Virus record (IMG/VR): IMGVR_UViG_3300047455_000250
Span: 1 to 43,592 of that record
Origin: a virus
Reading direction: 5' to 3' (one strand)
Length of the DNA stretch: 43,592 bases
Shown: positions 1 to 43,592 of the stretch, piece after piece
How positions within the stretch are numbered: position 1 is the first letter of the stretch
How the letters are laid out: every line of letters starts with the position of its first letter
Program-made: the position numbers and the translations under genes
Notes under the pieces: generated by a model
Databases searched by the model: none
The model's input: the letters and a program-made list of their open reading frames with translations, nothing else
Told to the model about the DNA's origin: nothing

Positions 1-127
1 GCGAAATAATACTATCTAGCGAGCCAGTGTCACAGGGAGGAAGCGAGCTTGCGAGCGACCCTTGACACGATAGGCGAAGCTAGTAGTAATATGAGCGATT
101 AGTAGGCTGAGCGGTATTATATCCGCC
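1..127. repeat. Terminal direct repeat, left copy
   Basis: Bases 1-127 are identical to 43466-43592, so the two ends of the contig overlap by exactly 127 bases. This is seen directly. An overlap of 127 equals a common largest assembler word size, so the simplest reading is a circular assembly of a complete phage genome of 43,465 unique bases. A true short terminal repeat, as in T7-like phages, would look the same. The repeat holds the end of a small gene (stop at 7-9) and a long hairpin (10-88). Confidence 0.95.
10..88 (+). ncRNA. Candidate structured RNA, hairpin A before portal
   Basis: A long interrupted hairpin begins right after the stop codon at 7-9. Paired arms from outside in are TACTA/TAGTA (10-14 with 84-88), CTAGC/GCTAG (16-20 with 79-83), GCC/GGC (23-25 with 73-75), GTGTCA/TGACAC (27-32 with 63-68) and AGGG/CCCT (34-37 with 59-62). 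The 21-base terminal loop (38-58) starts AGGAAGCGA and ends GAGCGA. The same loop frame appears in the hairpin at 33128-33257, whose stems are different. No T-run follows, so it is not an ordinary terminator. It lies in the late transcript upstream of the portal gene. A role in RNA processing, translation control or packaging is conjecture. Confidence 0.5.
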
Positions 128-164
128 AACACTAAATACACACTATAAATTAGGGATACTGGTA

Positions 165-2024
165 ATGCCTAACAAGAGTTATACCCTACTAAGAAAGGCA
201 CAACAGAATGTAGCACATTTTACTCGTGCCAGAATAAACTCATTTGATTTTAGTCAGCGCAGACGTCGTATGGAGATAATCGACCAAGCGTTGCAACTAG
301 AACACGCAAAGCGCAGTATTGATGATAAGAAAGACCGCAGACGTGACTACTACGACAGTATTGAAACTGCTCAAATTAGTCCTGCTATTGATACTATCCA
401 AGGGTTCCTAGTGGATTTATTCCTGTCTACTACTCCAATCTTTCCTGCTGTTAGTAATAGTAAAACTGACACCAGTATTGTTCACCAAGTAGATGCTATC
501 AATGAAGAACATGGTCGTCGTTATGGTTGGGCACGCCACTACGCACTGTTCTTTCGTGACCTTGCTAAGTACAACATTGGTGCTACTGAAGTGTCATGGT
601 ACAGTGACCAACAACGTGAACTAGCTCCAAGTTCTACTTCAGCAGAATACAATCAATCGGAAGTGCCACTACAAGATGTTGTAGTATCGGGTAACAGTAT
701 TAAACGTCTTGACCTCTATAACACTTTCTATGATGACAGTGTGCCAGTGTCAGAAATTCACGAGCGTGGGGAGCACGGTGGTTACATTGAGCGCCTTACA
801 TTAGTAGAACTGGTTCGCCGCATTCGCAGTATGAAAACTGGTGGTGGCAAGGTGATGAATGAATCACTAGCACTACAACGTGGGGCTGGCACTACTAGTG
901 AGGAGTTCTTCGTTCCTGACGTGATGCCAAGTGTTGCTCGTGAAAGTACTCAGAATCAGGATGGTAACTGGGAAAACTTTTTCTCAGAGATAGCAGGAGG
1001 TGCTGAACGTAAGTACCAAAGTGCTAGTCTTAGAAGTCTGTATGAAGTCACTACTATCTATGCTCGCATCATTCCTAGTATGTTTGGCATCAACAATGTT
1101 CCAGAGAAGAACACATTACAAATCTGGAAATTTGTTATTGTTGGTGAGGACATAGTACTATTTGCACAGCGACTTGAAAATGTTCACAGCTACTTGCCAG
1201 TAGTATTTGGTCAACTCCGTGAAGATGGTATTGGAGAGCAAGTTAAAAGTACTGCTGAATTACTAGTTCCATTGCAGAACCTTAGCAGTAAACTGTACGA
1301 TGCACGACTAGCAGCCTTAGCTCGAATGAACAACGACCGCATGGCATATATGGATGGTATTGTTGATAGTGCCACTGTCAATAGTAATAATCCTACTAGT
1401 AAGATAAAGGTTCGTCCTAGTGCATTTGTGAAAGATATACGTCAAGCACTGTACCCAATACCGTGGCGTGATGAAATCGGTCCTACTATTATTAACGAAC
1501 TCCAAAATGTTAACAACATGAGTGAGCGTGTTACTCGCCTTAATCGTCCACAACTAGGACAGTTCCAACGAGGTAACAAAACTTTAGGTGAGTTCCAGAC
1601 AGTAATGGCAAATGCTAATGCTGAACTGCGAGTGATGGGATTGCTCATTGAGAATGCAGTACTGCATCCAACTAAGACTATCCTCAAGTACAACATCATG
1701 CAGTTTCAGCCAGTTACTACTGTTAACACTCGTGAGAATGGTGAAGTCAGTGTTAATCCTAATGAGCTTCGCAGTAATAACATCGAGTTCAAACTAGCAG
1801 ATGGACTTGTTACTCGTGATGAACTGTCTGACGCTTCACTAGTACGTGAGATGCTTATGGACTTACGTAGTGACCCTAATGCTGCTATGGAATATGACCT
1901 TAATAAACTACGTGAGTACTTATACGGTCAAGCAGGTATTGACGTAACTCCGTTCCATTTATCTGCTGAAGAAAAAGAGCAGAAACGTCAACAACTAATA
2001 GCACAGCAAGCAGGGAGAAATTAA
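165..2024 (+). CDS. Portal protein (head-to-tail connector)
   Basis: This 619-residue protein would form the dodecameric ring at the head vertex through which DNA is packaged and ejected. The call rests on size, on its position two genes after the large terminase across the contig junction and before scaffold and capsid, and on general resemblance to podovirus portals: a basic helical start, a mixed alpha/beta middle, and a long helical C-terminal half ending in a charged glutamine-rich tail. No single catalytic motif exists to confirm it. The ATG at 165 has only a weak purine-rich stretch (AGGGA) upstream. The stop overlaps the next ATG by one base (TAATG), implying coupled translation. Confidence 0.85.
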   Translation: MPNKSYTLLRKAQQNVAHFTRARINSFDFSQRRRRMEIIDQALQLEHAKRSIDDKKDRRRDYYDSIETAQISPAIDTIQGFLVDLFLSTTPIFPAVSNSKTDTSIVHQVDAINEEHGRRYGWARHYALFFRDLAKYNIGATEVSWYSDQQRELAPSSTSAEYNQSEVPLQDVVVSGNSIKRLDLYNTFYDDSVPVSEIHERGEHGGYIERLTLVELVRRIRSMKTGGGKVMNESLALQRGAGTTSEEFFVPDVMPSVARESTQNQDGNWENFFSEIAGGAERKYQSASLRSLYEVTTIYARIIPSMFGINNVPEKNTLQIWKFVIVGEDIVLFAQRLENVHSYLPVVFGQLREDGIGEQVKSTAELLVPLQNLSSKLYDARLAALARMNNDRMAYMDGIVDSATVNSNNPTSKIKVRPSAFVKDIRQALYPIPWRDEIGPTIINELQNVNNMSERVTRLNRPQLGQFQRGNKTLGEFQTVMANANAELRVMGLLIENAVLHPTKTILKYNIMQFQPVTTVNTRENGEVSVNPNELRSNNIEFKLADGLVTRDELSDASLVREMLMDLRSDPNAAMEYDLNKLREYLYGQAGIDVTPFHLSAEEKEQKRQQLIAQQAGRN

Positions 2025-3386: not shown

Positions 3387-4610
3387 ATGCGCTTTTATGG
3401 CTCTAACGACTTACCGCAAGATTTAGCGAAAAAGTCATTTGCTGCTAATATCGCACGAGTAATGCCTAATGGTACTGCACCATTGTATGCTCTTAGTGGT
3501 ATGGCAAAGAAACGTACGTGTCTGGATATCGAACATGGATACTGGACTAAGAAAATGCAGTTTTTGCATATCACTCTTGATACTGCTATTGCTGACGGTA
3601 CTACAACTACCTTCTCAGTAAACTCTACTGACGGTGTATTGAAGAATCAGATTATCCGCATTCCTAAAGCGTTTAACTCTGGCTCATATGTTCCACCTGA
3701 ATTTGCTCGTGTTACCAGTGTTGACTACGGGAACAACAACATCACAGTTGAGCGTGGATTCGGTAACACTACTGCGGCAACTTCTATTGCTTCTGGTACT
3801 AAGTTAGCAGTACCTTTCAACGCACAGCCTGAAGGTTCACCAAAACCTGCTAGTCGTGCAGTAGTTCCAGAACGTGTAATGAACTACACTCAAATCTTCC
3901 GTAATGCTTGGTCACAATCTCGTACATTGGCAGCTATCAAGCAAGTGGTAGGTAATGGTACTGTTGCGGAAAACAAAGAAGATGCTATCACTTTCCACTC
4001 TCAGGAAATTGAATATGCTACACTGTTTGGTCGCAAGTACATCGGTACTGATAGTGAAACTGGTGAGCCTATTCACATGATGGATGGTTTGGAAGCTGTT
4101 ATTGAAGAACACTCTCCTAGCAACTTACGTGAAGCAGGTGCTACTACTAACTATGAACAGTTGGAAGAAATGCTTGACCCAGTCCTTGACTTCAAAACAC
4201 AGTCTATGTCTGGTAACAGTCGTACTATCTTCTGTGGTAAGCAAGCACTGAAAACTATCAATAACATCGGTCGTTTATCTGGTGAGTACCAGTTGCAAGA
4301 TGATCAGACTAACTTTGGTCTGTCATTTAAAACCTTCAGCACTACTCGTGGACGTTTCAACTTAGTGGAGCATCCATTGCTTAATACCAATGATGACTAC
4401 GCTAAAATGGCGTTTGTAGTAGACTTGTCACAGTTTGACTTCCTATCACTAGAAGGTCGTGATACTCAAGTTGAGTACATTAACGGTGATATGAAATCTA
4501 CTGACGGTCAAGACGCAACTGGTGGTATCTTTACTACTGAGTTGACTACTGAGATTATGAACCCATTTGCTCATGGTGTTATCTATAACCTGACAGCAGC
4601 ATCTGCATAA
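3387..4610 (+). CDS. Major capsid protein
   Basis: A 407-residue protein following the scaffold gene and flanked by a hairpin upstream and a strong terminator downstream, as expected for the most highly expressed head gene. The N-terminal run with TAPLYALSGMAKK recalls the SU10-like/DUF5309 group of HK97-fold capsid proteins. Residues about 50-140 look like a beta-rich insertion, and the C-terminal part carries the long conserved-looking domain. The family match is from memory and is less certain than the role. GGGGT lies upstream of the ATG. One of the genome's five GATC sites is here, at 4302. Confidence 0.85.
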   Translation: MRFYGSNDLPQDLAKKSFAANIARVMPNGTAPLYALSGMAKKRTCLDIEHGYWTKKMQFLHITLDTAIADGTTTTFSVNSTDGVLKNQIIRIPKAFNSGSYVPPEFARVTSVDYGNNNITVERGFGNTTAATSIASGTKLAVPFNAQPEGSPKPASRAVVPERVMNYTQIFRNAWSQSRTLAAIKQVVGNGTVAENKEDAITFHSQEIEYATLFGRKYIGTDSETGEPIHMMDGLEAVIEEHSPSNLREAGATTNYEQLEEMLDPVLDFKTQSMSGNSRTIFCGKQALKTINNIGRLSGEYQLQDDQTNFGLSFKTFSTTRGRFNLVEHPLLNTNDDYAKMAFVVDLSQFDFLSLEGRDTQVEYINGDMKSTDGQDATGGIFTTELTTEIMNPFAHGVIYNLTAASA

Positions 4611-5528: not shown

Positions 5529-8500
5529 ATGGCTATTGAAAATGAAGGAATAAATGAAAACGAATTACTAGGTCGTGACTATCGGTGGCAGTATCTTCAG
5601 AATATTGGTGTGAAGCGGATTAGTGGTACACAACTTCTTACTGAAGGTATGGAACCTAAATGGCTGTACTTCATTACTAGTATTGATTCTTTAGCAGTAT
5701 TAGTAAAAGACACTGTTGAAACATATTGGGCAGGGGCTTTTGGACAACCAGTTGCAGGTAGTAATACTCTTCGTGACACCTTGATACCATTTGAAGAACA
5801 ACGCTATTACAGCACTGAAGATAATGTGGCATACATTTATCGTGGAGGTAGTTGGGTAGGTGTATCTGACGGCAGCACCAATATCCGCAGTCCTGAGTAC
5901 GTCAGTATTGATAGTAGTCGTACTGTTGCGGTAGGTCGTAAGTACATTGTTACTGATGATGCCACTATCACACTTCCAACTGATGAAGTTGAAGATGGTC
6001 ATGTAGTAGAAATTGAGCCAGTTAATGGTGCCAATGTTGATATTGCAGGTACTCTTTATTTTGATGGTTCCAACGAGTCAGTGATTGATACTACTGGCAG
6101 TGCTATCTATCGCTGTATCTGGAGTGTTGATAAGTGGTACATTTTCACTAGTCTTATCCCTAGTGATGAAATTGAAGCAGCAGTATCTCAATGTACCATT
6201 TCCGCACAAACAGCACTTGATGCAGCGGAAGCAGCGGAAATGTCAGAGTTTAATTCTGCTGACCATGCAGCCACTGCACAAGAAGCCGCAGCAGTTGCCA
6301 GTAGTCCCCTTGTCTACTACGGTGCTTGGGATGCTAGCGGTGGTACACTTCCTAGTGCTCCAACTAGTGGTAACGGTGTGTGGCTTATTAGTGTTGCAGG
6401 TGACCTTACAGGTGCAAGTCCCTATACCAATGCAGCAGTTGGTCACACACTTGTCTATCGTGAGGCTGACACAAGTTGGACATTACTTCCTACTAATATC
6501 AGTGTCCAGTCTGTTAATGGCAAAACTGGTGCAGTAACTCTCACTGCTAGTGATGTAGGTGCATTACCTGATAGTAATGTAGTAGGTCCTAATGGTGCTC
6601 CAGTAATGTTAGAAGGCGCTTTTGGGGGTCCTACTGGAAGCCAGACATTCTTCCATACTGGCAACTTCACTCCTAGTAATTATGTTACATGGGCAGCAGC
6701 AGGTACCAGTGGACGTGCTGTATTTGAAGCTGCAACAGTAGCGGACATTAAAGCACTTCTACAATATGGAACTGCTGCAAGCCGAAATGTCGGCACTGCT
6801 AATAGCACAAACATTCCTGATATTGCAATACTGAATCAGCGACTTGGGACTACTGGTAACTTATCAGAAGCAGCATCCCGTGCAGTTACTGGTACTGGCG
6901 CTTTGATGACAGTAGGATTTGAAGGCTTCGGGGGTACAGCCATTGAGGAAAGTTGGGATGAAGCTGTCACTGGTAATGGTTTCCGTTACAGTGTCAGTGC
7001 GTCACCCCTCACTGGTCGCAGCTTTAGCGGACTTAATGTACTAGGTAATGAACGTGGGTTCCAGTTTAACGCTGAGAACAGTCGTTGGTTTGGACGTACA
7101 TTTACTAGTGGTAGTGGATTCACTCCTGATAATTGGTATGAATTTGCTACTATTGACGGCACTCGTGACAATTTGCGAGTGGACGTTCATGGTGGTGATG
7201 CCGATAACTATATCTATCTTGGCAGTTTCAATGTAACCTCCAGTGTTGCCAATTTACCCATAGCACTTGATGGAGAGTTGGATGTTGGTGGTGTTGACAG
7301 TGATGCTAGTGGTGGAGGACGTTGTGTTCAGAAATTCGTACCATTTAGTAACACTGGTGTTGAGTTCTATGTTCGTAGTAAGCTCAATGGCACATTTAGT
7401 CCATGGCGTAAGTACAGTAACCTAGGCACACTAGGCAGTGCTGCGGAAGAGGATGTTACCACTTTTGTCGCAGGAAGTTGGGAAGCTGTTGATGCTGCAA
7501 GTTTCCGTAGTTATATGGGACATGGCACTGCCAGTACGTATAATGTAGGCACAGCAGAAGATGAACTTGTTACTAATGCTACACTTGACAGCAAGATTGG
7601 CACACTTGGTACAGCAGCATCTAAAAATGTTGGCACTGCGGCAGGTGAAGTTCCTCTTAACAGTGACCTCAATATTAGTAATTGGAACACAGCTTATGGA
7701 TGGGGTAATCATGCCAGTGCAGGATATGCAGTTGCCAGTAATTTAGGAAATTTGGCTACTAGAGATACTATCAATAATGCTCACTGGTTAGGTACTGACC
7801 TCAGTGTTGCCAATGGTGGTACTGGAGCTAGTACACAATCAGGCGCACGTAGTAACCTAGGATTAAAAAGTGCAGCTACTAGGGATGTTGGTACTAATAG
7901 CGGGGATGTCGTTACTCAAAACGGAACGCTTATCTCGGGTTATCAACAGCTTTACTTTACTGGGATCACTTACGTTGGCGACTGGGGTGTTGATTTAAAC
8001 AATTCTGACATTATTGGTGCAAATTCAATAATCTTTGCTGATGAATCATCTGGAGTTAATGAGGGGTTGTTATTCCCCAAATCTGGCAGTGCGACACAAA
8101 CATTGTCTGACTACTCTAGGATTTCCTCTTATGGATCGGAGCTGGTATTCTCTCCGACTGCTGGAGGGTCGGATTATAATATTTGGGGAAAGCACAACCT
8201 TTCTAGCCCAATGACAACTAATACTAATCAAACGGTTGCAGGAGATAAAAAATTTACGGGATTAGTAGGGATAGGTGAAACTGTTGCACATGTAGCATTT
8301 AATTTAGACTATGCGCCTCCTAGTGGATTTGCAGCAGCTATATTTAGACACAGAGGAGAGGGAAATGCTAATGGTTACATATTTGATATAGATAACATTG
8401 GAGGGTCATATTTAGTTGACTTCAGGCGAGGCAACTCAAGCGTTGCAAGAATTGAAGCAACAGGTAATGTGATAGCAGCCAACTACTATCCAACTTCCTC

Positions 8501-8825
8501 TGACCAACGCCTGAAAAACAAACTACGTCCAGTAGTGATTAACTACCGTCAGGCAGCAGCACTACAAAGTTGGGTGTTCCAGTGGAAAGACATTGAAGCA
8601 GTGCTAGAGAGTCAACGAGGTAAACTGGAAATTGGTCTTATGGCGCAGGAAGTAATGGAAGTATTTCCTCCTAGTGAATATCCATCACTGGTAATTAAAA
8701 AGGACAATGGCTACTACACTATTGACCCTGATAAAATCCTGATGATGCGAGTATTTGCTAAAGTTGAGCCTCGACTAGTAACGTGGTTCAAAGACTTCAA
8801 GCGTTGGCTGAAAGGAGGTGCATAA
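5529..8825 (+). CDS. Tail fibre with self-cleaving S74 chaperone domain
   Basis: This 1,098-residue protein is the receptor-binding fibre. The N-terminal part (about 1-220) is the probable attachment region. The middle contains repeated fibre-type units such as LGTAASKNVGTA around residues 410-790. The C-terminus is a peptidase S74 intramolecular chaperone: SSDQRLK at 990-996 gives Ser991 and Lys996, matching the Ser-Lys dyad that cuts the chaperone off after trimer folding in endosialidase-type fibres. Residues about 785-985 (bases 7,880-8,480) use TCN serine codons rather than the genome's favoured AGT and hold two of the five GATC sites, so this segment looks recently acquired. The stop overlaps the next start. 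Confidence 0.9.
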   Translation: MAIENEGINENELLGRDYRWQYLQNIGVKRISGTQLLTEGMEPKWLYFITSIDSLAVLVKDTVETYWAGAFGQPVAGSNTLRDTLIPFEEQRYYSTEDNVAYIYRGGSWVGVSDGSTNIRSPEYVSIDSSRTVAVGRKYIVTDDATITLPTDEVEDGHVVEIEPVNGANVDIAGTLYFDGSNESVIDTTGSAIYRCIWSVDKWYIFTSLIPSDEIEAAVSQCTISAQTALDAAEAAEMSEFNSADHAATAQEAAAVASSPLVYYGAWDASGGTLPSAPTSGNGVWLISVAGDLTGASPYTNAAVGHTLVYREADTSWTLLPTNISVQSVNGKTGAVTLTASDVGALPDSNVVGPNGAPVMLEGAFGGPTGSQTFFHTGNFTPSNYVTWAAAGTSGRAVFEAATVADIKALLQYGTAASRNVGTANSTNIPDIAILNQRLGTTGNLSEAASRAVTGTGALMTVGFEGFGGTAIEESWDEAVTGNGFRYSVSASPLTGRSFSGLNVLGNERGFQFNAENSRWFGRTFTSGSGFTPDNWYEFATIDGTRDNLRVDVHGGDADNYIYLGSFNVTSSVANLPIALDGELDVGGVDSDASGGGRCVQKFVPFSNTGVEFYVRSKLNGTFSPWRKYSNLGTLGSAAEEDVTTFVAGSWEAVDAASFRSYMGHGTASTYNVGTAEDELVTNATLDSKIGTLGTAASKNVGTAAGEVPLNSDLNISNWNTAYGWGNHASAGYAVASNLGNLATRDTINNAHWLGTDLSVANGGTGASTQSGARSNLGLKSAATRDVGTNSGDVVTQNGTLISGYQQLYFTGITYVGDWGVDLNNSDIIGANSIIFADESSGVNEGLLFPKSGSATQTLSDYSRISSYGSELVFSPTAGGSDYNIWGKHNLSSPMTTNTNQTVAGDKKFTGLVGIGETVAHVAFNLDYAPPSGFAAAIFRHRGEGNANGYIFDIDNIGGSYLVDFRRGNSSVARIEATGNVIAANYYPTSSDQRLKNKLRPVVINYRQAAALQSWVFQWKDIEAVLESQRGKLEIGLMAQEVMEVFPPSEYPSLVIKKDNGYYTIDPDKILMMRVFAKVEPRLVTWFKDFKRWLKGGA

Positions 8826-9451
8826 TGGCTACTGGTTATCATTTCCGTGATGGTGCTGACTTTGACAGCAGGTGCGCAACTCGTGATGGTGGCTCTCTCC
8901 CTATTAGTGAGAGTGCCTACCGTCTTGCTAATAACAGCCAGTTAATGCACAGATATGCTTCTACTGATGTTGGACCATCTGCACTGTCAGTATTTGGTGA
9001 GAGCGGGTTTCATGCTAGTAATGGTAATGATATAGCATCGGGGTTGTGTGCTAGGCTGAGAAATTGTATACCTGCTAATGTTCCAAGTGCAATAGCCGTC
9101 ACAACTCAGCAACTTTCTGCTTATGCTAATATCACTTTCATGAACGATGGTAGAGTACGAAGAACAGTGGGAGATTCTAGCGCTCCCAGTACTACTACTA
9201 CATACCCTACCCGTTGGGGTAACTCTCAGGTTAGTGGAGGAAGTTTTCAAGTTAGATTCACATTACTATCAGGAAACGTTAGTGGATCTTTTGGGAGTTG
9301 GCTTTCTCTTAGCTCCAGTAGAGGAGTGTCCTGTAATGTATCACCAGGAAGATCACAGGGAGGCAGGGTTCGTGCTGAGTGGCGTTATGGTGGTTTCGGT
9401 ACTATCTTCTCAGATGAATTTGATGTTGAAGCTACCAGTGGAATAAAATAA
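8825..9451 (+). CDS. Fibre-associated tip protein (probable)
   Basis: A 208-residue protein starting at the ATG that overlaps the fibre stop (TAATG) behind a strong AAAGGAGG site. A longer reading from 8783 has no such site. The first 55 residues use the genome's normal codons. From about residue 60 the codon use changes and GATC sites appear at 9285 and 9351. The C-terminal 60 residues, with GSFGSWLSLSSSRG followed by short beta strands, recall a small beta-sandwich module found in phage tail and fibre proteins (from memory). A conserved anchor with an exchanged tip is the best reading, and it may contact the receptor or assist the fibre. Confidence 0.6.
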   Translation: MATGYHFRDGADFDSRCATRDGGSLPISESAYRLANNSQLMHRYASTDVGPSALSVFGESGFHASNGNDIASGLCARLRNCIPANVPSAIAVTTQQLSAYANITFMNDGRVRRTVGDSSAPSTTTTYPTRWGNSQVSGGSFQVRFTLLSGNVSGSFGSWLSLSSSRGVSCNVSPGRSQGGRVRAEWRYGGFGTIFSDEFDVEATSGIK

Positions 9452-9491
9452 TATAACTAATAATTAAAAACACCAGACAACTGGAGGACTT

Positions 9492-33257: not shown

Positions 33258-33268
33258 ATACGCTAGCG

Positions 33269-34392: not shown

Positions 34393-34877
34393 TACTCCTC
34401 CCCACTAGCGAATGCTATTAGTTCGTCATCAACAGTGATACCAAGTTGCCCTAGCTCTTCCACAATGTCAGCAACACGTTCTACTATTAGCTGCTGCGCT
34501 AGTGAGCTGAGCCGCTCTTCGGCATTATAAGGCAATGAGATATTGCGTGGGAATAGTTCCTTACTAGTCACACCTAGACTACCACCACTAGTATCATTGA
34601 CAATGTTAATAACAGGTTGGTAGTTGGCTGCTTGATAGGATGCACGTTCAAGGTCACGTAGTTCCGTGAACAGTGTCACTACCTTCTTCAAGTTTTCAGA
34701 GTCACTGGTAGCACTGGTAGGAGTAGGAATGCGATTTGGGATAGTGCCATCACCAATAGGTTCCTGTGATGCTCGGAACTTGTATCCACCACTCTCTTCA
34801 TTACTTAATTCAAGAGGTATACCATCATTTAGTTTTGCATAATCTTCACTAATCTGAGTGTCAGATTTCTTAGTCAT
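34392..34877 (-). CDS. Hypothetical protein
   Basis: A 161-residue acidic protein. The ATG at 34877, nine bases after GGAG, is preferred over an upstream TTG. Residues 1-55 appear disordered, 60-85 form a likely helix (LKKVVTLFTELRDLERAS), and 115-150 form another helical part. Function unknown. It lies between the SF1 helicase gene and the 237-residue protein. Confidence 0.65.
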   Translation of the reverse strand: MTKKSDTQISEDYAKLNDGIPLELSNEESGGYKFRASQEPIGDGTIPNRIPTPTSATSDSENLKKVVTLFTELRDLERASYQAANYQPVINIVNDTSGGSLGVTSKELFPRNISLPYNAEERLSSLAQQLIVERVADIVEELGQLGITVDDELIAFASGEE

Positions 34878-34898
34878 AATCAATTCTCCTTGCCCTTA

Positions 34899-37106
34899 CT
34901 AGAAGGGCGTATCAGTTTGTGGGTTGGTGTTGTAGCTATTGCTACCATTTGCATTACTGCTATTAAACAGTGTAGGCTGCGACGGCTTGGTACTAGCTGC
35001 TTTAGCACTAGCTTCTTTCGTAGCAACTACACTTGCATGACTATCAATAATGGAACGAACCTCCTCGCTCTTTTCTGCTAGTTTAAGTTTATCTCGGAAG
35101 TAGTGGAGCTTGTCCTTAACAGTAGCACCTGGTACTACTTGGGACAGGATACCACCAACAAAGGTAGCGTTCTTAGGAGATTTCACTGCGTTCTCACAAC
35201 TACACATCACTACTAGGTTATGTCTAGCACGAGTAACACCAGTGTAGAGTGTCTCCCTGTTACGCTGCTTTCCATGAGTGTGGTGCATTACTAAGTACAC
35301 GTTGCTCCACTCACTACCTTGTGACTTATATACTGTTAGTGCATAGGTGAATATAATCTCATTGATTTGTCCGTTGCTGTTGATTTTAATATCATACAGC
35401 TCACCATTAGGACTACTGCTACCAGTGGCACTATCACGGTTTTCCACTCTCCGCAGGTAAAGCTCATGCGTTGCCTTACTACTACCTTCACGCAGTTCAT
35501 CAGCACTGGCTTCCATTAGTGCTTCAATCTCTGCTTCACTTTCTGCTACTTGATTGTGTAGGACATGGGCTTGCAGTGATTCCCTTTCTTCCTCTGCCCA
35601 CTGGCGCTGCTGTTCCGATTCTATCTTCCGTAGTCTGCCCCATCTGTCCATTAGTCGTGAAGCAGGTCGTGCTTTCTTACTACCAACATAGGTTTTATTT
35701 TCCTCTATATCTACTATCTCATAGAAGTTCTTAGCATACATGATGCGGTCGCCAATACTGAAATAGTGTTCCTCACGTCCTGATACTACATGGTGGACAT
35801 AGTGACCGTGTAAGTCAGTGAAACCTTGTGCTATGTGTCGGTTAAGCTCAATAGTACCAAATTGTTTGTTGTAGGGTATCAGTACTACATCTTCATCAGG
35901 GTTGAAGTCCTCACTCACTACTTTGTTGTAGAAGTGACGACCATAAGAACGGACAGCCTTTTCAGGTTCCAGTTTCTTAGCAAATGGTAGTATCTTCACA
36001 CTACCAGTGTCATCACTACGCCCCGACCATTCCATTAGTTCGTCTTTACGAATAGGACGCCCTTCCAGTATCCGGTGAGCAAACTTAGTAATGATACCAA
36101 CGTTCCGATACGCAATGTTAAGTTCCACTATTGGTAGTGACAGTAACATATAACCTAGTATTCCATCACCAAATGCTGGTGGTAACTGGTTAAGGTCTCC
36201 AAGGAATATAAAGGTGGTATCCTTCGGATGTGGTAGTGCTGATATCAATGTCTTAAATAGATACACTGGCACACTACCTGCTTCCTCTATTATCACTAGG
36301 TCAAGGTGTGGCAGTTTCTCCATACCACCAAGACCACTACCACCATCAGTTTCAGGTTCCATTCCGTAGCGTGGCACGAATCGTTGTAGTGACTTAGTTT
36401 CACCAGTTGGGATACCATCACTATCAACTTCATCTTCATCGAAGTCCTCTGGATGATATTCTAACAAGTTGTGCATAGTGGAACAGTGACTAGCAAACTT
36501 CTGTGGTAGCACTTCACGTATATTCCTTACCGCTACGTTGGTGTAGGATAGCACTGCTGCACGAGGTCCGCCACTTTGTAATAGCTTCTCAGTAAACTCT
36601 CCTTCACCAAGAGTGCCGATTTTATTGTGCTGTGATAGTTGCTGCGTTAGTAGTCGCACTGTTGTTGTTTTACCATAACCTGCCGCACCAATAAGACAGA
36701 AACTGTCACCTTCCTCACCAAGTTTAATTGCTAGTTTCTGCTTCTCATTAAGCATGTCAAAGGTAATGTCACCCTTGCCGAGGTCACTAGCAACAGCACT
36801 ACTGGTTGCAGATTTGTTTATGCTAGAAGTTGCCGCTGCCTTGCGCCTTAGTTCTAGCTTCTCTTTCCAAGACAGTCCCGCAGTATTAGGACTGGTGGTA
36901 CTGCCGCTGCCAGTAGTGTTAGTATTGGAACTAGAAGTAGCAAGCTTTCTCTCATTATTGCTACCACTGCTATTAGTATCAATACTGCCACTATTATTAC
37001 TAGGATTGTTAGTGCCATTATTGCCCAAATCTTCTCTGCTCGTACCGTCATCATTAAGTCCTGCCCTTCTATTAGCTAGTCGTGATTTCAATGATAGTTT
37101 AGTCAT
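34899..37106 (-). CDS. SF1 DNA helicase (RecD2/Dda-like)
   Basis: A 735-residue helicase. Walker A GAAGYGKTT (140-148), Walker B-like LVIIEEAGS, motif III FLGDLNQLPP, motif IV LNIAYRN, motif V TVYKSQGSEW and motif VI YTGVTRARHNL appear in the right order for superfamily 1B helicases. About 110 N-terminal residues are Asn/Ser/Gly/Thr-rich and disordered, with two copies of a basic motif (SLKSRLANRR at 5-14, SWKEKLELRR at 79-88). The C-terminus is also Asn/Ser-rich. It would unwind DNA for replication or recombination. AAGGAG precedes the ATG, which overlaps the upstream gene by eight bases. Confidence 0.92.
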   Translation of the reverse strand: MTKLSLKSRLANRRAGLNDDGTSREDLGNNGTNNPSNNSGSIDTNSSGSNNERKLATSSSNTNTTGSGSTTSPNTAGLSWKEKLELRRKAAATSSINKSATSSAVASDLGKGDITFDMLNEKQKLAIKLGEEGDSFCLIGAAGYGKTTTVRLLTQQLSQHNKIGTLGEGEFTEKLLQSGGPRAAVLSYTNVAVRNIREVLPQKFASHCSTMHNLLEYHPEDFDEDEVDSDGIPTGETKSLQRFVPRYGMEPETDGGSGLGGMEKLPHLDLVIIEEAGSVPVYLFKTLISALPHPKDTTFIFLGDLNQLPPAFGDGILGYMLLSLPIVELNIAYRNVGIITKFAHRILEGRPIRKDELMEWSGRSDDTGSVKILPFAKKLEPEKAVRSYGRHFYNKVVSEDFNPDEDVVLIPYNKQFGTIELNRHIAQGFTDLHGHYVHHVVSGREEHYFSIGDRIMYAKNFYEIVDIEENKTYVGSKKARPASRLMDRWGRLRKIESEQQRQWAEEERESLQAHVLHNQVAESEAEIEALMEASADELREGSSKATHELYLRRVENRDSATGSSSPNGELYDIKINSNGQINEIIFTYALTVYKSQGSEWSNVYLVMHHTHGKQRNRETLYTGVTRARHNLVVMCSCENAVKSPKNATFVGGILSQVVPGATVKDKLHYFRDKLKLAEKSEEVRSIIDSHASVVATKEASAKAASTKPSQPTLFNSSNANGSNSYNTNPQTDTPF

Positions 37107-38211
37107 TGCTACTATCTCCTTTCTGCAAATTAGTGCTACCTTTGGCGCTACTATATGCTGCCATTCGTGCTTTCATTCGTTCCACTGGGTCGCTGATACT
37201 ATCAACGTCCACCTTGTTTACTGCTGCTACTGCCTCTTTATTTACTGGTATATCGTCAACAACTTTTGTCCGTGTGCTGTACTTGTTACCAGTACCTTTG
37301 GAAGTGGTGAGGTCATCTTCCAGTACTATGAAGCCAAGTTCCTCTTCTTCCTTATACAGTGTTTCAAGGCGATGCTGTAAGTGACGCAATACTAGTGATG
37401 ACTTAGTGCGAGTAGCTTCATCTATAAATTCAAGATTGTTTCTAACAAGTTCTATTGCTTCTTTTAGTAGTTCACGGCGTAGCTTTTGGTCATCAGCACT
37501 AAGGCAAAATTGAACCATTGCTACCTGCGGCTGCGGCACTTCCGCTGCTCTTAGTTGGCGTATTGCCCACTTGCCAAGCTGACTGGTGTATCGTTGCACT
37601 TTGCCGTAGTTTTGGAGCATTCCTTGTAATTCACGTTCAAGGTCTATCTGTGATAGTAACTCTCCATCATTGCGACGTGTTACTGTTGATAGTTGTTCTT
37701 CCAGTAATGTGTCGTGTATCACTTCTCTGGTATTCAGTAGCAGTTGTTTGATAGCCTTACCATCACTAGCATTTTCTACTGTTACTCGATAGCGTGGAAG
37801 TTGCATATCACGTGCTACTAGTTGCGAGCCGTACTTCTGGAGCATTGACAGTAGTGTATCACGATATTTATTGAACTGTTGCTCTTCCATATACAGACCA
37901 CAGCAACCAATACCAGTAGTAATTATCATACCAGTTTTAACCATGATTGCCGTTGTCAGTAGATATTGTTCCGTCCAAGTTAGTTGCTTCTCTGTTACTA
38001 ATGTTTCCAGTATCTTCGCAGTAGGCACACTAAAGATTGGATGTTCACTTGCTACTGCTGTGCCACTGATAGCAGTTTTATGAAACTGATTGCTAGTTAC
38101 TAACTTAACATGAGTATGACAACAATATGAAACCATGCCGCTGTAATGCTGTCTGATAGTGCGAGGTAGTTTCTTGTATTGACCTGCGCTGTTACTTTGA
38201 AATTCATTCAT
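37099..38211 (-). CDS. Hypothetical protein coupled to the helicase
   Basis: A 370-residue protein that I do not recognise. An N-terminal region with several Cys and His residues (SGMVSYCCHTHVKL) is followed by hydrophobic helices (about 65-110), long charged helices (115-300) and a flexible tail. Near the end DPVERMKARMAAY weakly recalls the basic motif in the helicase N-terminus. The start has only a weak GGGA site. Overlap with the helicase gene suggests co-translation and a shared process. Confidence 0.65.
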   Translation of the reverse strand: MNEFQSNSAGQYKKLPRTIRQHYSGMVSYCCHTHVKLVTSNQFHKTAISGTAVASEHPIFSVPTAKILETLVTEKQLTWTEQYLLTTAIMVKTGMIITTGIGCCGLYMEEQQFNKYRDTLLSMLQKYGSQLVARDMQLPRYRVTVENASDGKAIKQLLLNTREVIHDTLLEEQLSTVTRRNDGELLSQIDLERELQGMLQNYGKVQRYTSQLGKWAIRQLRAAEVPQPQVAMVQFCLSADDQKLRRELLKEAIELVRNNLEFIDEATRTKSSLVLRHLQHRLETLYKEEEELGFIVLEDDLTTSKGTGNKYSTRTKVVDDIPVNKEAVAAVNKVDVDSISDPVERMKARMAAYSSAKGSTNLQKGDSSND

Positions 38212-38259
38212 TGTTACTAATTCCCGTTGTCTTATTAGTGGGTAGTCTTATTAAGTGTA

Positions 38260-38880
38260 TTACTCTGCGGTGTTGGTGCTGCTTGCGCTACTGGTTGCTG
38301 CCGTTGCTGTGAAATATCCTGCTTTGTGCATTGCTGCTAGTGTCATCCACAAATGGTTATTAACGTCCTTTCCGTAGTGTTTCAGGAATGCAAAGCGCAT
38401 AAAGAATCTACGACGGCAACCTTTTGGAAAATCTACTGGAGCCAATAAAAAATAAGGCAAGTCATCTGGAAGGATAACACCACCACTAGCAAGGGCAGTG
38501 ACTTGCGCATTGGTATTGTTAATCTCACTAGTCCAGAAGTCCTGCAATTCACGTAGAATACTAGCACTGGTAGTGGCTGCAAACATTGTTAGTAGTGACA
38601 CACCAAACTCCTGAATGAAACTGTCATTTACTTGCGTTAGTTTCGCAATAGCACAGTCAACCGGCTTTTCATGTGCTATTCCATTAGTTGTGCGTTGCGC
38701 TTGTGTGTTCGTGAACACTGTTAGATTGTGAGCTTGTGCTATTAGACTGCGGCGCTCTTCTGCTTCCTGTTTCAATGTCATATCTTTATGTATCCTATCA
38801 GTAGCTAAACGTGTACGGTGGTGTGCTGCTGCTTCATGTGCAAGATTGTTGCTAATGGTATCAATATCAAAAGTGTTCAT
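38260..38880 (-). CDS. Hypothetical protein, first gene of main early operon
   Basis: A 206-residue protein of unknown function and the first gene downstream of the strong leftward promoter at 38974-39002. A helical, charged N-terminus (1-60), a middle with hydrophobic helices (about 90-160) and an Ala/Thr/Ser-rich end. First-position early genes often encode host-takeover or regulatory proteins, but nothing here identifies one. Confidence 0.65.
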   Translation of the reverse strand: MNTFDIDTISNNLAHEAAAHHRTRLATDRIHKDMTLKQEAEERRSLIAQAHNLTVFTNTQAQRTTNGIAHEKPVDCAIAKLTQVNDSFIQEFGVSLLTMFAATTSASILRELQDFWTSEINNTNAQVTALASGGVILPDDLPYFLLAPVDFPKGCRRRFFMRFAFLKHYGKDVNNHLWMTLAAMHKAGYFTATAATSSASSTNTAE

Positions 38881-38886
38881 AGTTAT

Positions 38887-38922
38887 TATTCCTATTAGTA
38901 GTAAGAGATATTCCTATTAGTA
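38887..38922. repeat. 14-base direct repeat in early leader
   Basis: TATTCCTATTAGTA occurs at 38887-38900 and again at 38909-38922 (22-base period). On the leftward strand the copy nearest the gene supplies the AGGA ribosome-binding site at 38880. The second copy could be a decoy or a regulator site. Confidence 0.6.
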
Positions 38923-38973
38923 CTGGCAACGTGTGCCAAATGTGCGACCTAGAATCCTTAGCCACAGAAACCC

Positions 38974-39002
38974 ATCCTACCATAAATAGTGCGAAAAGTC
39001 AA
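38974..39002 (-). promoter_or_regulatory. Strong leftward early promoter
   Basis: On the leftward strand TTGACT (39002-38997), a 17-base spacer and TAGGAT (38979-38974) make a good sigma70 promoter, with an A-rich run upstream of the -35 box. It reads into the main early operon starting at 38880. The GGAACG repeat array at 39037-39101 lies just upstream of it. Confidence 0.75.
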
Positions 39003-39036
39003 GCGTTTTTTACTACTGCGGAAATGTAATCCCTAT

Positions 39037-39101
39037 GGAACGGCAACACTGACAGCGCATGAAGTGGAACGACAAGGAATGGAAAAGAACATGAGGAACG
39101 T
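39037..39101 (+). repeat. GGAACG iteron array, left arm
   Basis: Four copies of a 7-base unit on the rightward strand: GGAACGG 39037, GGAACGA 39066, GGAATGG 39076, GGAACGT 39095. Start spacings are 29, 10 and 19 bases, close to whole turns of the helix, so bound proteins would lie on one face. It mirrors the array at 39465-39520. Confidence 0.6.
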
Positions 39102-39464
39102 GCGACCCCTCCACCGATACCCTAACCTACACCCCCTCATAATGTATCCGCAGTACTACTATCTAACACCTACTGCACAAGTGGCGTGTGCAAGGGTAAA
39201 GTGTGGGTAGTAGTACAGCCTCGCATATTGCTCTTACCCTTTTATTTTAGGGGGGTATCAAATTTGAACTTATTTAAAAATTGGGTATACCCTATACTAC
39301 TAACAACTATATATGATAATACTAGCCACTACTAGCATATCAACACTACCTACTACTGGTGTGGTATTACTACCTGATACTGGTGGTGGAATGTGGGCTA
39401 TTAGTACTACGGGATACTATAACATATGATATAGGGGGGTGGGCATGGGCTGTACACGCTCCTT
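39102..39464. other. AT-rich gene-free centre, possible replication origin
   Basis: No convincing gene is present. The stretch is flanked by facing GGAACG arrays. It contains two perfect 10-base palindromes, TCAAATTTGA (39258-39267) and GGGTATACCC (39283-39292), and a TATATATGATAAT-type AT-rich run near 39310. G-runs of TAGGGGGG form occur at 39249 and 39432. Iterons beside an easily melted region are typical of origins bound by an initiator protein. An alternative is a control region for the leftward promoter at 38974-39002. Confidence 0.45.
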
Positions 39465-39520
39465 CCGTTCCTTTCCGTTCCACTTTACGCAAAACCGTTC
39501 CACAATGGTTTATCCATTCC
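39465..39520 (-). repeat. GGAACG iteron array, right arm (inverted)
   Basis: Read on the rightward strand the units are CCGTTCC at 39465, 39475 and 39495, and CCATTCC at 39514, with spacings of 10, 20 and 19 bases. On the leftward strand these are GGAACGG-type units pointing at the left array. The core of both arms reads AAGTGGAACG then AAGGAA, an imperfect inverted repeat about 400 bases apart. Confidence 0.6.
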
Positions 39521-39585
39521 ACAGGGATTGCATACTAGCTACTACTAATAACCACAATACCTTACAATCTACTGACAGCCAGACA

Positions 39586-39616
39586 CAAAAAAGCCCCACT
39601 CATAAGAGCGAGGCTT
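39586..39616 (-). terminator. Leftward terminator after isolated early gene
   Basis: On the leftward strand AAGCCTCGCTC (39616-39606) pairs with GAGTGGGGCTT (39601-39591), eleven pairs including two G-U, around a TTAT loop and followed by six T. It ends the single-gene transcript of 39646-40401 before the iteron region. Confidence 0.88.
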
Positions 39617-39645
39617 GTTATTGTTACCTGTGACTACTGACTGAA

Positions 39646-40401
39646 CTATTCAGTTTCAAACAAATCTACGTCAATGTCATCATCAGCAGGTTCCAGTGCT
39701 TTCTTCAGGTTATCCAACCACAGATTGAACACCGCACTATGCTGTACTTGCTCTGGCTCACCTTCCAGTTGCTGATAACTTTCCAGTACCAGTGTCTGAA
39801 TGCGCTCCAGTACTTCAGGCTTAGCAGTCTTACAAGCCGCAGCACCAAATTTGCGCTGTGCCAAGTCCGTCATATATTCACGGGCTTTTTCTTTCGTGCC
39901 AAGTGCTTCCAGTACTTCACTAAGAACTTTAGTAGCTTCCTCAACTTGTTCTTTAGTGACCTTAGTTGAAGCCTTGCGTTTACTGAAATCAGCGTTAAAG
40001 ATTGCTGACCAGTGTTGCAAGTTACCAGTAGCATTATCAACGTCCTCACGTTGGCTATCTTCAATGTACTTGTTGATAAGCTCTTGCAAGTGTTGCTTCA
40101 TCTTAGGAGTGAAACCAACGTCATCACGAATGAATGACTCGACAACTGGCACTTCCATTACAACGCTCTGTGATTTGCGCTTAACTACTGGTGTTCCGTC
40201 ATCACGTTTATCACGGTTAATGTCATCTTCCGACAACTTACCAGCACTAACCAATTCCATCAGATTGTTAAAGCCTTTGTTGCTCTTATCTTCTGGGAAT
40301 GACTTGTAATGGTACATTGCTTCATGTGGACGCTGTTCTACGTTAAGACCTTCAACAGCACCAGTGATTGCTTCATTAGTATTTGCTTGTTCTTGTGACA
40401 T
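39646..40401 (-). CDS. Isolated early gene, unknown (candidate regulator or initiator)
   Basis: A 251-residue protein alone in its own unit, with promoters upstream and a strong terminator downstream. GAGGG precedes the ATG. The protein is acidic and mostly helical: a flexible start (1-25), a Lys/Asp-rich middle, long helices (about 95-235) and a very acidic end (DDDIDVDLFETE) like the tails that recruit partner proteins. I do not recognise a DNA-binding motif. Its place beside the GGAACG arrays makes it a candidate for the protein that binds them, but that is inference only. Confidence 0.7.
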   Translation of the reverse strand: MSQEQANTNEAITGAVEGLNVEQRPHEAMYHYKSFPEDKSNKGFNNLMELVSAGKLSEDDINRDKRDDGTPVVKRKSQSVVMEVPVVESFIRDDVGFTPKMKQHLQELINKYIEDSQREDVDNATGNLQHWSAIFNADFSKRKASTKVTKEQVEEATKVLSEVLEALGTKEKAREYMTDLAQRKFGAAACKTAKPEVLERIQTLVLESYQQLEGEPEQVQHSAVFNLWLDNLKKALEPADDDIDVDLFETE

Positions 40402-40443
40402 GATTATGTCCCTCTAGTTAGTTAACATTTAATTAAGTGTTAT

Positions 40444-40483
40444 CACCTGTGACGGTGAGAAAGTATCTTACCAAACACCTGTG
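40444..40483. promoter_or_regulatory. Paired CACCTGTG operator-like sites
   Basis: CACCTGTG occurs at 40444-40451 and 40476-40483, start to start 32 bases (about three turns). One lies between the -35 and -10 boxes of the leftward promoter at 40465-40493 and the other just after its likely start point. The second runs into TGTGCCAAATG (40480-40490), which recurs at 38932-38942 near the other early promoter. Confidence 0.45.
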
Positions 40484-40493
40484 CCAAATGCAA
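40465..40493 (-). promoter_or_regulatory. Leftward promoter for isolated early gene
   Basis: On the leftward strand TTGCAT (40493-40488), a 17-base spacer and TAAGAT (40470-40465) form a plausible sigma70 promoter about 65 bases before the ATG at 40401. CACCTGTG sites overlap it. Confidence 0.55.
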
Positions 40494-40690
40494 CAAGTCT
40501 TTCTCATACTTTCCACTGTTAATACTAGCAAACATTTCCAACTAATGCCAGTACTAACAGCAAATAAAATTGTAAAGATTGCCATTGTTGTTACTACTAC
40601 CACACCACAGAAAATGTTAGGTGGGAATGAGTATGATTCGTATTAGTGATAGGGGGTAGGAACTTTTTTACCTTGTGCGCCTAGAGTCCT

Positions 40691-40718
40691 ATATTAGCTC
40701 CCCGTAAAATTTTCTAAA
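40691..40718 (-). promoter_or_regulatory. Possible second leftward promoter
   Basis: TTTAGA (40718-40713), 16 bases, TAATAT (40696-40691) on the leftward strand. The sequence just after it, AGGACTCTAGG then CGCACA, closely resembles AGGATTCTAGG then TCGCACA just after the promoter at 38974-39002. The shared segment supports both being early promoters. Confidence 0.35.
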
Positions 40719-40864
40719 GTTTTGTGGGTTTCCCCCAGTACTAGTAACACACTATGCAGTATGCTGTGGAAGTGGCAAGAAGTCGCACTCTCTTAGTAGC
40801 ACACACACAACTCACCATTAGGTTAGTGGTGGCACAGAAAGTCCACTCCCTTCGGTAGAAAAAG

Positions 40865-40893
40865 TTGGTAGTGAGGGTTGATTTTGATATGAT
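40865..40893 (+). promoter_or_regulatory. Probable rightward late promoter before terminase genes
   Basis: TTGGTA (40865-40870), a 17-base spacer and TATGAT (40888-40893) give a reasonable -10 box with a weak -35 box, about 70 bases before the small terminase ATG. A weak -35 would fit a late promoter that needs help from a phage protein. An alternating purine-pyrimidine tract follows. Confidence 0.45.
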
Positions 40894-40903
40894 AATGGTA
40901 TAT

Positions 40904-40935
40904 CACGCGCGCGCACGCACACACGCGCATATATA
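40904..40935. other. 32-base alternating purine-pyrimidine tract (Z-DNA-prone)
   Basis: Every base from 40904 to 40935 alternates pyrimidine and purine: mostly CG and CA steps, then TA steps at the end. Such tracts can flip to left-handed DNA under supercoiling. It lies between the likely late promoter and the small terminase gene, in what would be the late mRNA leader. Confidence 0.8.
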
Positions 40936-40961
40936 AAGGAAGGGGCATAAGGGGTAATGGT

Positions 40962-41534
40962 ATGGCTTCACAGGACACAACAGACATGATGGTTGAGCTG
41001 CTAGGCAAGGGCTATCGTCAGGTGGAAGTGGCAAGGCTCATGGGCATCAGTGAAAGTGCAGTAGCACAAATAGCTGATACGTATAAGGACAGAATACAGG
41101 AAACTCGTATTGAAAGTACTGTTGCCACTCGTGCTATTGACCAAGATATTGATGAAGCAGAGCAGTTAGCACTAGATAGGCTCATGAAGCAGTTGGCATT
41201 TGAGGTTGATACTAATAAGTTGACTCGTGCTTTTAGTGCTCTCAATGGTGCGAAGCGTCGAGCACTGCCAATGGATGATATTACCAAAGGCAGCAGTGCG
41301 ATTGCGGAAGTAACACTACCAGCACACTTGCAGCAGAATATAACTTATGTTCACAATACTCATAACCAGATAGTGCAAATCAATGATAAGTCACTATCAA
41401 CTGCTAGTAATAAGCAGGTGGACAGTCTTCTGGAGAAACACCGGAATCGGATACTAGAATCACCTAATGGTGAGGGAGGTAGTAATGAGATATCAGCAGC
41501 GGATTTTGAAACAGAAACTAGCGAACCTGAGTGA
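40962..41534 (+). CDS. terS: Terminase small subunit
   Basis: A 190-residue protein that would recognise the packaging site and hand DNA to the large subunit. A helix-turn-helix is visible at about residues 18-38 (YRQVEVARLMGISESAVAQI), followed by a long helical oligomerisation region and an acidic, flexible C-terminus. It is the first gene of the late block, directly before the terminase large subunit. The ATG at 40962 follows AAGGGG by seven bases. Confidence 0.8.
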   Translation: MASQDTTDMMVELLGKGYRQVEVARLMGISESAVAQIADTYKDRIQETRIESTVATRAIDQDIDEAEQLALDRLMKQLAFEVDTNKLTRAFSALNGAKRRALPMDDITKGSSAIAEVTLPAHLQQNITYVHNTHNQIVQINDKSLSTASNKQVDSLLEKHRNRILESPNGEGGSNEISAADFETETSEPE

Positions 41535-41661
41535 GGTTAACACTAATACTGCTGCCTTCACTCACAATGCTAACAGAGCCAGTGCGCTTCACACCACAAT
41601 GCGTAAGAAAGTAGCAGCACTTGACAGTCGTAATACTAATACAGAAAAGAGAGGGAAATAG
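41485..41661 (+). CDS. Small basic protein between terminase subunits
   Basis: A 58-residue basic protein whose ATG at 41485 follows GGGAGG, overlapping the end of the small terminase gene by 50 bases in another frame. A longer start at 41467 lacks spacing to that site. It begins MRYQQRILKQKLANL, a likely amphipathic helix, and ends in Lys/Arg-rich sequence. It ends two bases before the large terminase ATG. Not recognised; it may aid packaging. Confidence 0.55.
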   Translation: MRYQQRILKQKLANLSEVNTNTAAFTHNANRASALHTTMRKKVAALDSRNTNTEKRGK

Positions 41662-41663
41662 TA

Positions 41664-43253
41664 ATGGATGCTCCATCGCCACCACCATCTTCTACTAGCC
41701 CAGTAGCTCTCAATACTGACAACTTTAAGCAACTGTTGCGCACCTCACTAGATTATCTAGGAGGAACAGCACTACCAGATGTTTGTACTGTTGCATTCTC
41801 AGATTTGCACAATAACATTTGGGAACTACTACGAAACTCATGTGAAAGTGAGGTAATGGAATACCTGCGTTTCGCAATAGGTCTACCTCGTGGTCATGCT
41901 AAAACACAAATCATAAAGCTACTGATAATGTGGATAGTCTTCTACACTGATAGACGATTCATACTAGTAGTGTCCAATACTGCTGGCGCTGCACAGAACA
42001 TTATCAATGATGTTTGTGACATGATGAGTGAGCCTAACATTGTTAATGTGTTTGGTGACTGGCGACATGACATTGAGAAGAATAATGCGGAACTGACAAT
42101 ATTCAACTTTAATGGTCGCAAGGTAATACTAAAGCCAATGGGTATTGGTAGTAGTGTTCGTGGTACTAACATTAACAACCGTCGTCCTGAAGTAATAATA
42201 TGTGATGATGCGCAGGACAAGGAAGAAGCTATGAGTCCTGAGATAGCACGGAAGCAGTTGCAGTGGTTCTTGGGTACACTACTAAAGGCACGCTCACCTC
42301 AACGCTGTACTGTTATCTACATTGGTAATATGTACCCTGATATTGAAATTGGTGATAAAGGTAGTGGTGTCTATGGCTGCATCCTTCGGAACCTGCAACT
42401 TAATAGTGAATGGCGTTCATGGATTACTGGTGCAATACAGGAAGATGGTACAGCACTATGGCCTGAGGTACACTCGCTGCAATCACTACTATCAGACCTA
42501 GCACAAGATAGTGATATGGGAGAAGCTGACATTTGGCACGCAGAAGTGCAGAACAATCCCAATCCTAACATTAACAAGTTCCTCGACTTTGATAAGATAC
42601 CGGAATATCCATATGATGAAGCTGACCCAGTAATAGGAAAGTTCATCATGATTGACCCATCACTAGGTAAGAAAACCAGTGATAACCAGATAGTAATGCT
42701 GTTCTATGTATATGATGACAAAGGACCAGTAGCACGAGAATTCCGAGTAATGCAGAATGATGCACCAACAGTAGTAAAGGAAACAATCCAGTGGGCATTG
42801 GAGGAACGTGTGCCATTAGTGTGCAGTGAGAACTATGCTTATCAGGCATCACTACTGCAATGGTTCGTGTTCGTGATGAAAAATATCCAAGTGCCAGAAC
42901 AGGAGATACAATTCGTTGGGATTAACAGAGGTGCCAGAAAGGGCGGCAATACTAAGAACACAGCAATCATTAGTAGCTTCCGCCAGATAATGAAAGGCAG
43001 CTTGATACTACATCCTAATGTCCTGTCACCATATAAGACAGAAGCGCAACTATTCAATCCTACTACTGACAAGAACGTGGATGACGTACTGGATACTACT
43101 GAATATGGACTTCATATATTCCGTGACTACACTAGTGAATATCTTCTGGACACTCCCTTGTTGATAGGTGAGAGCTATGGTATAACTGATGCTACTAAAC
43201 ACGATGATGACTTTGACCCAACATCTTATGACTTTAGTGGAGGACTAAACTAA
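41664..43253 (+). CDS. terL: Terminase large subunit (packaging ATPase-nuclease)
   Basis: A 529-residue motor that pumps DNA into the head and cuts it. The ATPase domain shows a variant Walker A GLPRGHAKT (73-81), a typical terminase form, then a strand FILVVSNTAGAAQNI, and Walker B VIICDDAQ (177-184). The C-terminal nuclease domain begins at FIMIDPS (Asp331), with a second acidic site near VCSENYAY. Size is normal. GAGAGGG precedes the ATG. The stop overlaps the next start (TAATG). Confidence 0.93.
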   Translation: MDAPSPPPSSTSPVALNTDNFKQLLRTSLDYLGGTALPDVCTVAFSDLHNNIWELLRNSCESEVMEYLRFAIGLPRGHAKTQIIKLLIMWIVFYTDRRFILVVSNTAGAAQNIINDVCDMMSEPNIVNVFGDWRHDIEKNNAELTIFNFNGRKVILKPMGIGSSVRGTNINNRRPEVIICDDAQDKEEAMSPEIARKQLQWFLGTLLKARSPQRCTVIYIGNMYPDIEIGDKGSGVYGCILRNLQLNSEWRSWITGAIQEDGTALWPEVHSLQSLLSDLAQDSDMGEADIWHAEVQNNPNPNINKFLDFDKIPEYPYDEADPVIGKFIMIDPSLGKKTSDNQIVMLFYVYDDKGPVAREFRVMQNDAPTVVKETIQWALEERVPLVCSENYAYQASLLQWFVFVMKNIQVPEQEIQFVGINRGARKGGNTKNTAIISSFRQIMKGSLILHPNVLSPYKTEAQLFNPTTDKNVDDVLDTTEYGLHIFRDYTSEYLLDTPLLIGESYGITDATKHDDDFDPTSYDFSGGLN

Positions 43254-43474
43254 TGTCTTTACTTGAACTACTAATAGCAGGAGTAATACTGGCACTGTTC
43301 CTGTGTCCTCCTGCACGTGATACCAGTGATGCAGATGCCATTAATGATGCGGGTCATCCTTTTGGCAGGGATGAGGATGTAGTAGATGAAAGTATCAATG
43401 GTAATACTACTGCCACATCAACCACCACTGATACACCCGAAGGGTATAATCCGCCGAAGCCTGCCGCGAAATAA
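43253..43474 (+). CDS. Small membrane-anchored protein before portal
   Basis: A 73-residue protein with an N-terminal hydrophobic segment (LLELLIAGVILALFLC, residues 3-18), then a polar Asp/Thr/Asn/Pro-rich tail. The cysteine after the hydrophobic run followed by Pro-Pro could be a lipid site, but LFLC is not a standard lipobox, so a simple membrane anchor is more likely. Its stop falls inside the terminal repeat, just before hairpin A. An outer-spanin role is possible but unproven. Confidence 0.6.
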   Translation: MSLLELLIAGVILALFLCPPARDTSDADAINDAGHPFGRDEDVVDESINGNTTATSTTTDTPEGYNPPKPAAK

Positions 43475-43592
43475 TACTATCTAGCGAGCCAGTGTCACAG
43501 GGAGGAAGCGAGCTTGCGAGCGACCCTTGACACGATAGGCGAAGCTAGTAGTAATATGAGCGATTAGTAGGCTGAGCGGTATTATATCCGCC
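43466..43592. repeat. Terminal direct repeat, right copy
   Basis: Exact copy of bases 1-127. It includes the last nine bases of the small membrane protein gene and a second view of hairpin A at 43475-43553. On the circular genome this is the same locus as the left end. Confidence 0.95.

Follow-up and report, generated by a model that had tools for sequence, protein, structure and literature searches.

The window analysed here is the whole of the IMG/VR virus record IMGVR_UViG_3300047455_000250, a stretch of 43,592 bases that carries an exact direct repeat at both ends. These 127-bp direct terminal repeats mark it as the complete genome of a podovirus. In addition to the features listed below, it codes for an endolysin, and the primase, DNA polymerase, recombination and helicase genes are found on the opposite strand.

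1..127, no strand: left copy of the terminal repeat, 127 bp, exact and direct
165-2024: portal gene
3387-4610: SU10-type major capsid gene (Pfam PF17236, E 2e-40)
5529..8825, plus strand: tail fibre of 1098 aa with an S74 (endosialidase-type) chaperone domain (PHROG tail-fibre matches, PF13884)
8783..9451, plus strand: ORF of 222 aa with a GTG start, 3' of the fibre and presumed to be fibre-associated by position
16410-21917: presumed internal virion protein of 1835 aa, one of several
43466..43592, no strand: right copy of the terminal repeat, 127 bp, exact and direct

The nearest named relative of the window is Aeromonas phage P5 (OM519319), whose capsid protein is ~48-53% identical, followed by Polaromonas phage Tiera, EBPR podovirus 3 and the Pseudomonas PaP2/119X group (Fredfastierviridae, Jamesmcgillvirus). 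The portal, SU10-type capsid, primase and terminase of the PaP2/P5-like phages all have homologues in the window in conserved order; for PaP2/119X, the likeness covers portal, capsid, primase and a similar gene order. The window is a distant relative of PaP2 and Aeromonas phage P5. No close relative was found by DNA, nor by the portal protein in viral contigs.

The first-pass annotation had reported that GATC is nearly absent from the window, with five sites, and an exact count returned the same five.

4302..4305: GATC site 1, in the major capsid gene (3387-4610), at codons Asp306-Gln307 (GAT followed by CAG)
7964..7967: GATC site 2, in the distal part of the tail-fibre gene
8134..8137: GATC site 3, in the distal part of the tail-fibre gene
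9285..9288: GATC site 4, in the ORF at 8783-9451
9351..9354: GATC site 5, in the ORF at 8783-9451
9355..43592: longest GATC-free run, 34.2 kb (P ~1e-44 at Markov density)

The annotation had also proposed comparing tetramer counts with a Markov expectation. Under a second-order Markov model of the whole genome, 129 GATC sites are expected, and the z-score of -13.8 is the most extreme and the lowest among the 256 tetramers. We then shuffled synonymous codons in 37 genes, holding each protein and its codon usage fixed. The 200 shuffles gave an expectation of 114 sites and never fewer than 94. Intergenic DNA has none, with ~9 expected. The choice of codon depends on the neighbouring base: Asp is written as GAT in 1/109 cases ahead of a codon starting with C and in 442/706 (63%) elsewhere (p 6e-40), and Ile is written as ATC in 1/124 cases behind a codon ending with G and in 182/602 (30%) elsewhere (p 4e-16). 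Therefore, selection acted on the DNA word, and it is this selection that cleared GATC from the genome. We found nothing in favour of the idea that the depletion is a by-product of mutation bias, codon usage or amino-acid composition, and the shuffles and the codon-context tests leave it practically no chance of being right. An alignment of two sister relatives, G026 and G031, speaks against mutation bias as well: GATC was kept at 0/49 aligned sites, compared with 32% for other tetramers, and the words that took its place are varied, none of them predominating. We also regard an assembly artefact as implausible, as the signal is genome-wide and recurs in contigs of many samples and in isolates.

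Four of the five sites lie within 1387 bp (7964-9351; P = 0.0006, or 0.002 when corrected over cluster sizes), and the remaining 42 kb of the genome holds one GATC, in the capsid gene. Two features bear on this cluster.

7791..7913, plus strand: fibre hinge motif, residues 755-795 (41 aa), 74% identical to Klebsiella phage L-shaped fibres
7791..9451, plus strand: probable imported receptor-binding cassette, 4 GATC observed

The cassette is undepleted, since its 4 sites compare with 3.4 expected at fixed codon usage and 6.2 under the Markov model. The hinge adjoins the first fibre GATC site on the upstream side and is likely a recombination point. The N-terminal ~200 aa of the fibre are common to relatives (tblastn against G001, G002 and G006). 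Beyond these residues, no relatives of the fibre or of the ORF at 8783-9451 were found in phage or IMG/VR collections except for the hinge and the S74 domain, and a search of both collections for a donor of segment 7791-9451 matched the hinge alone. Because of the undepleted GATC density, the lack of relatives and the hinge directly upstream, recent import of the cassette is plausible. The cluster is most simply read as a recent exchange of the receptor-binding part, although its recency is something we infer: the cassette around 7964-9351 would have entered by recombination just after a widely shared fibre hinge, too late for purging.

The four clustered sites may instead be functional and kept on purpose, or be chance survivors, which we consider unlikely. 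Such an origin would agree with the composition of the cassette, which does not look foreign. The trinucleotides of 7.5-9.75 kb are ordinary (ranks 21st-116th among 169 segments), and the codon use of 7791-9451 falls in the top 6%, while the stretch of the fibre gene upstream of it, free of GATC, is more unusual still (top 1%). Thus, the earlier suggestion that distinct codon use marks the exceptions is not supported. The residual clusters of relatives also lie outside fibres, which again suits retention or chance. On the other hand, a density equal to the undepleted expectation (4 vs 3.4), a segment with no homologue in any relative and the position of the hinge all argue for import. GGCC, CGCG and CCGG are absent from the cassette too, which is uninformative with ~1-2 expected each.

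The first-pass annotation had placed four of the five sites in fibre and fibre-tip genes and explained the exceptions as recent imports. The placement of these four in a variable fibre region holds, at undepleted density. The fifth lies in the conserved major capsid gene; import is plausible for the fibre cassette and leaves the capsid site unexplained. As a general rule, the location in fibres fails when sites are mapped in relatives. The residual GATC of G001, G002, G007 and Aeromonas phage P5 are scattered, unclustered and not concentrated in fibres, and the three of P5 lie outside its fibre genes, a difference from the window. G022 and G046 show weak clusters (P ~0.03) in genes other than fibres. 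G031 retains only two GATC sites, and one of them (33565) falls inside an ORF for a collagen-like fibre of 1055 aa (G031:32768-35935, L171) that is missing in its sister G026.

GATC is not the sole avoided word in the window, but the strongest case within a broader palindrome avoidance. The observed and expected counts are 2/39 for GGCC, 7/38 for CCGG, 0/25 for CTGCAG, 1/20 for CAGCTG, 11/62 for CCWGG and, in coding DNA, 2/57 for CGCG. All six-base palindromes together number 297, compared with 527 expected, and GANTC is normal (108/96). Several palindromic restriction words are thus depleted and non-palindromes are not, as in type II restriction avoidance. Half of the genome's eight CGCG sites are located at 40906-40927, in non-coding DNA upstream of a putative small terminase gene. 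The window shares its loss of GGCC with G002 (0/31), G006 (0/20) and G046, and the word is normal in G001 and Aeromonas phage P5 (168/169). Therefore, the avoided words differ among near relatives. Restriction is the likeliest cause of the GGCC loss in the window, G002 and G006. P5 resembles the window in GATC (3/154) and CCWGG (22/108) and differs from it in its normal GGCC, CCGG and CGCG.

To place the loss of GATC in the family, relatives were gathered from IMG/VR through capsid and primase, and the longer records were retrieved. The tree, built quickly from portal, capsid and primase, contains 114 records, some as long or partial rows. GATC is near expectation in most relatives, and almost or fully missing at many separate places in the tree. 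The counts are 0/109 in G015, 0/94 in G023, 0/120 in G043, 2/134 in G031 and 10/80 in G001. Pseudomonas PaP2/119X differs from the window in keeping GATC near expectation (188/239), and its host group is not known to have MutH. We estimated at least 9-10 changes between the depleted and the normal state on this tree, an approximate and threshold-dependent figure in which gains and losses are not separable. Even sisters differ: G031 has 2/134 and G026 73/168, and L121 has 0/38 and G030 97/169. Only palindromes ever fall below 0.2 of expectation among the tetramers, GATC in 16/114 records and the next, GGCC, in 5/92; in G023, G031 and P5, GATC is the only lost tetramer.

The gene differences between G031 and G026 lie mostly in tail and fibre genes and reveal no evident methylase gene. 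We rejected the idea that phages switch between GATC states through a Dam or MutH-like enzyme of their own, on the basis of Pfam scans of the relatives: Dam-type PF05869 matched 0/51 records, PF02086 1/50 and PF01555 only 5 distant outgroup records, and no phage MutH was found in 10 records. It is possible, though we think it rather doubtful, that GATC content is a fast and reversible record of host history, wiped at least nine times, and within no more than the divergence between sister genomes, as fibre swaps brought Dam/MutH hosts. GATC-bearing cassettes would then be the latest swaps and could be dated.

We next compared GATC among phages with named hosts. The panel (n=24) is small and hand-picked, and consists of 6 relatives and 18 mainly T7-like podoviruses. 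Enterobacterales, Vibrio and Aeromonas were counted as Dam/MutH groups, a status that we assume from general knowledge. GATC is low (<0.35 of expectation) in 10 of the 11 phages of these groups and in 1 of the 13 others (Fisher p 6e-5, with relatedness ignored). A single T7-like subfamily contains both states, as Vibrio phage VP4 (L237-L238) has 0/180 and gh-1 of Pseudomonas putida (L241-L242) has 230/248; P5, from the Dam/MutH-group host Aeromonas, is depleted, and Vibrio phage ABTNL-3 keeps 94/172. VP4 has also lost CTAG (0/79). With GATC normal, gh-1 has CCWGG at 0/111, CTAG at 0/27 and six-base palindromes at 0.17 of expectation. Among 14 control genomes, the MutH model matched in E. coli only. 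The search for a host through bacterial genomes carrying relatives gave three weak matches in metagenome bins and indicated no host.

Because GATC loss follows Dam/MutH host groups in the panel, we rank Dam/MutH first for the window. The first-pass annotation had invoked Dam-type methylation or GATC-cutting restriction together. These are two separate explanations, and the host comparison favours Dam/MutH without proving it. We lean towards counterselection by Dam/MutHLS as the cause, with the agent and the host group inferred. In the window, GATC is far below the codon and composition expectations and no recognised phage methylase is present, whether a D12-class or a phage-type Dam (PF02086, PF05869 and PF01555 all negative, which covers recognisable types), as in phages of the Dam/MutHLS type. 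A search for GATC-directed defence or nuclease genes with Pfam and PADLOC gave only a gene of the PD-(D/E)XK exonuclease type and some marginal matches. A 370-aa protein on the minus strand (37099-38211) has a weak likeness to KwaB (PADLOC E 0.002), probably by chance. The agent would be the methyl-directed mismatch-repair machinery of the host. In hosts that have both Dam and MutHLS, rapidly replicated phage DNA is under-methylated and MutH nicks unmethylated GATC, so that each site costs progeny if the phage lacks a Dam of its own. Over time, almost all GATC that can be changed silently would be removed. Type II restriction may have acted alongside, leading to the loss of GGCC, CCWGG and many six-base palindromes in the same lineage.

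Evidence from phiX174 bears on this mechanism on both sides. Like earlier studies of enterobacterial phages, work on phiX174 connects the loss of GATC with the Dam/MutHLS system of the host. The phage has zero GATC, and methylation reaches only about half in phage DNA into which GATC has been introduced (PMC5014478); citing Deschavanne and Radman 1991, the same paper states that phage yields tend to be lower when the cells are dam- mutH+ (PMC5014478). However, GATC-bearing phiX174 mutants showed normal short-term growth, which counts against a Dam/MutHLS cost (PMC5014478). The same phage gives rise to another proposal, in which GATC avoidance is favoured for evolvability, as escape from mismatch repair raises the phage mutation rate; phiX174 with added GATC does mutate about eightfold less (PMC5014478). 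We consider this very improbable for the window, where second-order selection would be needed to remove ~125 sites, and the phiX174 study found that some absent GATCs leave the mutation rate unchanged and that the mutation-rate effect vanishes under stress (PMC5014478).

The main rival to Dam/MutHLS is type II restriction in hosts or alternative hosts, by enzymes of the DpnII/MboI/Sau3AI kind, which cut unmethylated GATC, or of the DpnI kind, which cut the methylated word, with GATC as one of several purged words. We place it second, as a real possibility that we judge the less probable. The other words depleted in the window, from GGCC to CCWGG and the six-base palindromes, are what it predicts, and so are the restriction of tetramer loss to palindromes across the 114 relatives and the switching of GGCC between G002 or G006 and P5. 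Two Pelagibacter podoviruses, HTVC019P (L268-L269; 0/89) and HTVC011P (L273-L274; 0/81), are free of GATC, and their host group (SAR11) is not known to have MutH; therefore, causes other than MutH are possible too. Both also lack CCWGG, GGCC and almost all GANTC, a multi-word loss that looks like restriction, and in HTVC010P GATC and GANTC are normal. A survey reported GANTC loss in pelagiphages and found no restriction system in SAR11 (PMC9516812). Against restriction stand the three phages that lost GATC alone among tetramers, the far more frequent loss of GATC than of any other tetramer, and the host-group association, which scattered restriction systems do not predict.

Counterselection by Dam/MutHLS, which we favour, can be set beside known systems. 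The annotation's appeal to T7 fits, as the same count gives 6/141. T7, T3, K11 and K1F are likewise podoviruses of ~40 kb with direct terminal repeats, GATC at 2-9% of expectation, depleted CCWGG, normal GANTC and no phage Dam. However, these enterobacterial phages belong to another family with another gene set, and keep the GGCC, CCGG and CGCG that the window has lost. phiX174 shares the complete avoidance of GATC, with an experimental link to Dam/MutHLS (PMC5014478), but is an unrelated 5.4-kb single-stranded phage. The pelagiphages with GANTC depletion (PMC9516812) also show clade-specific loss of a methylation word, whereas GANTC is intact in the window.

Word avoidance in phages has long been known, and the window is a clear new instance of it; what is new is its extent and recurrence in the PaP2/P5-like family and the comparison of host groups. 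GATC avoidance has been argued for decades from few enterobacterial phages, and MutH cutting and restriction were never cleanly separated. With many independent losses, including those within the sister pairs G031/G026 and L121/G030, the PaP2/P5-like family makes the cause testable by comparison. A phage without GATC and without Dam, with GANTC intact, probably has a gammaproteobacterial host of the Dam/MutH type, and this pattern may thus offer a host-group prediction for uncultured phages such as the window.
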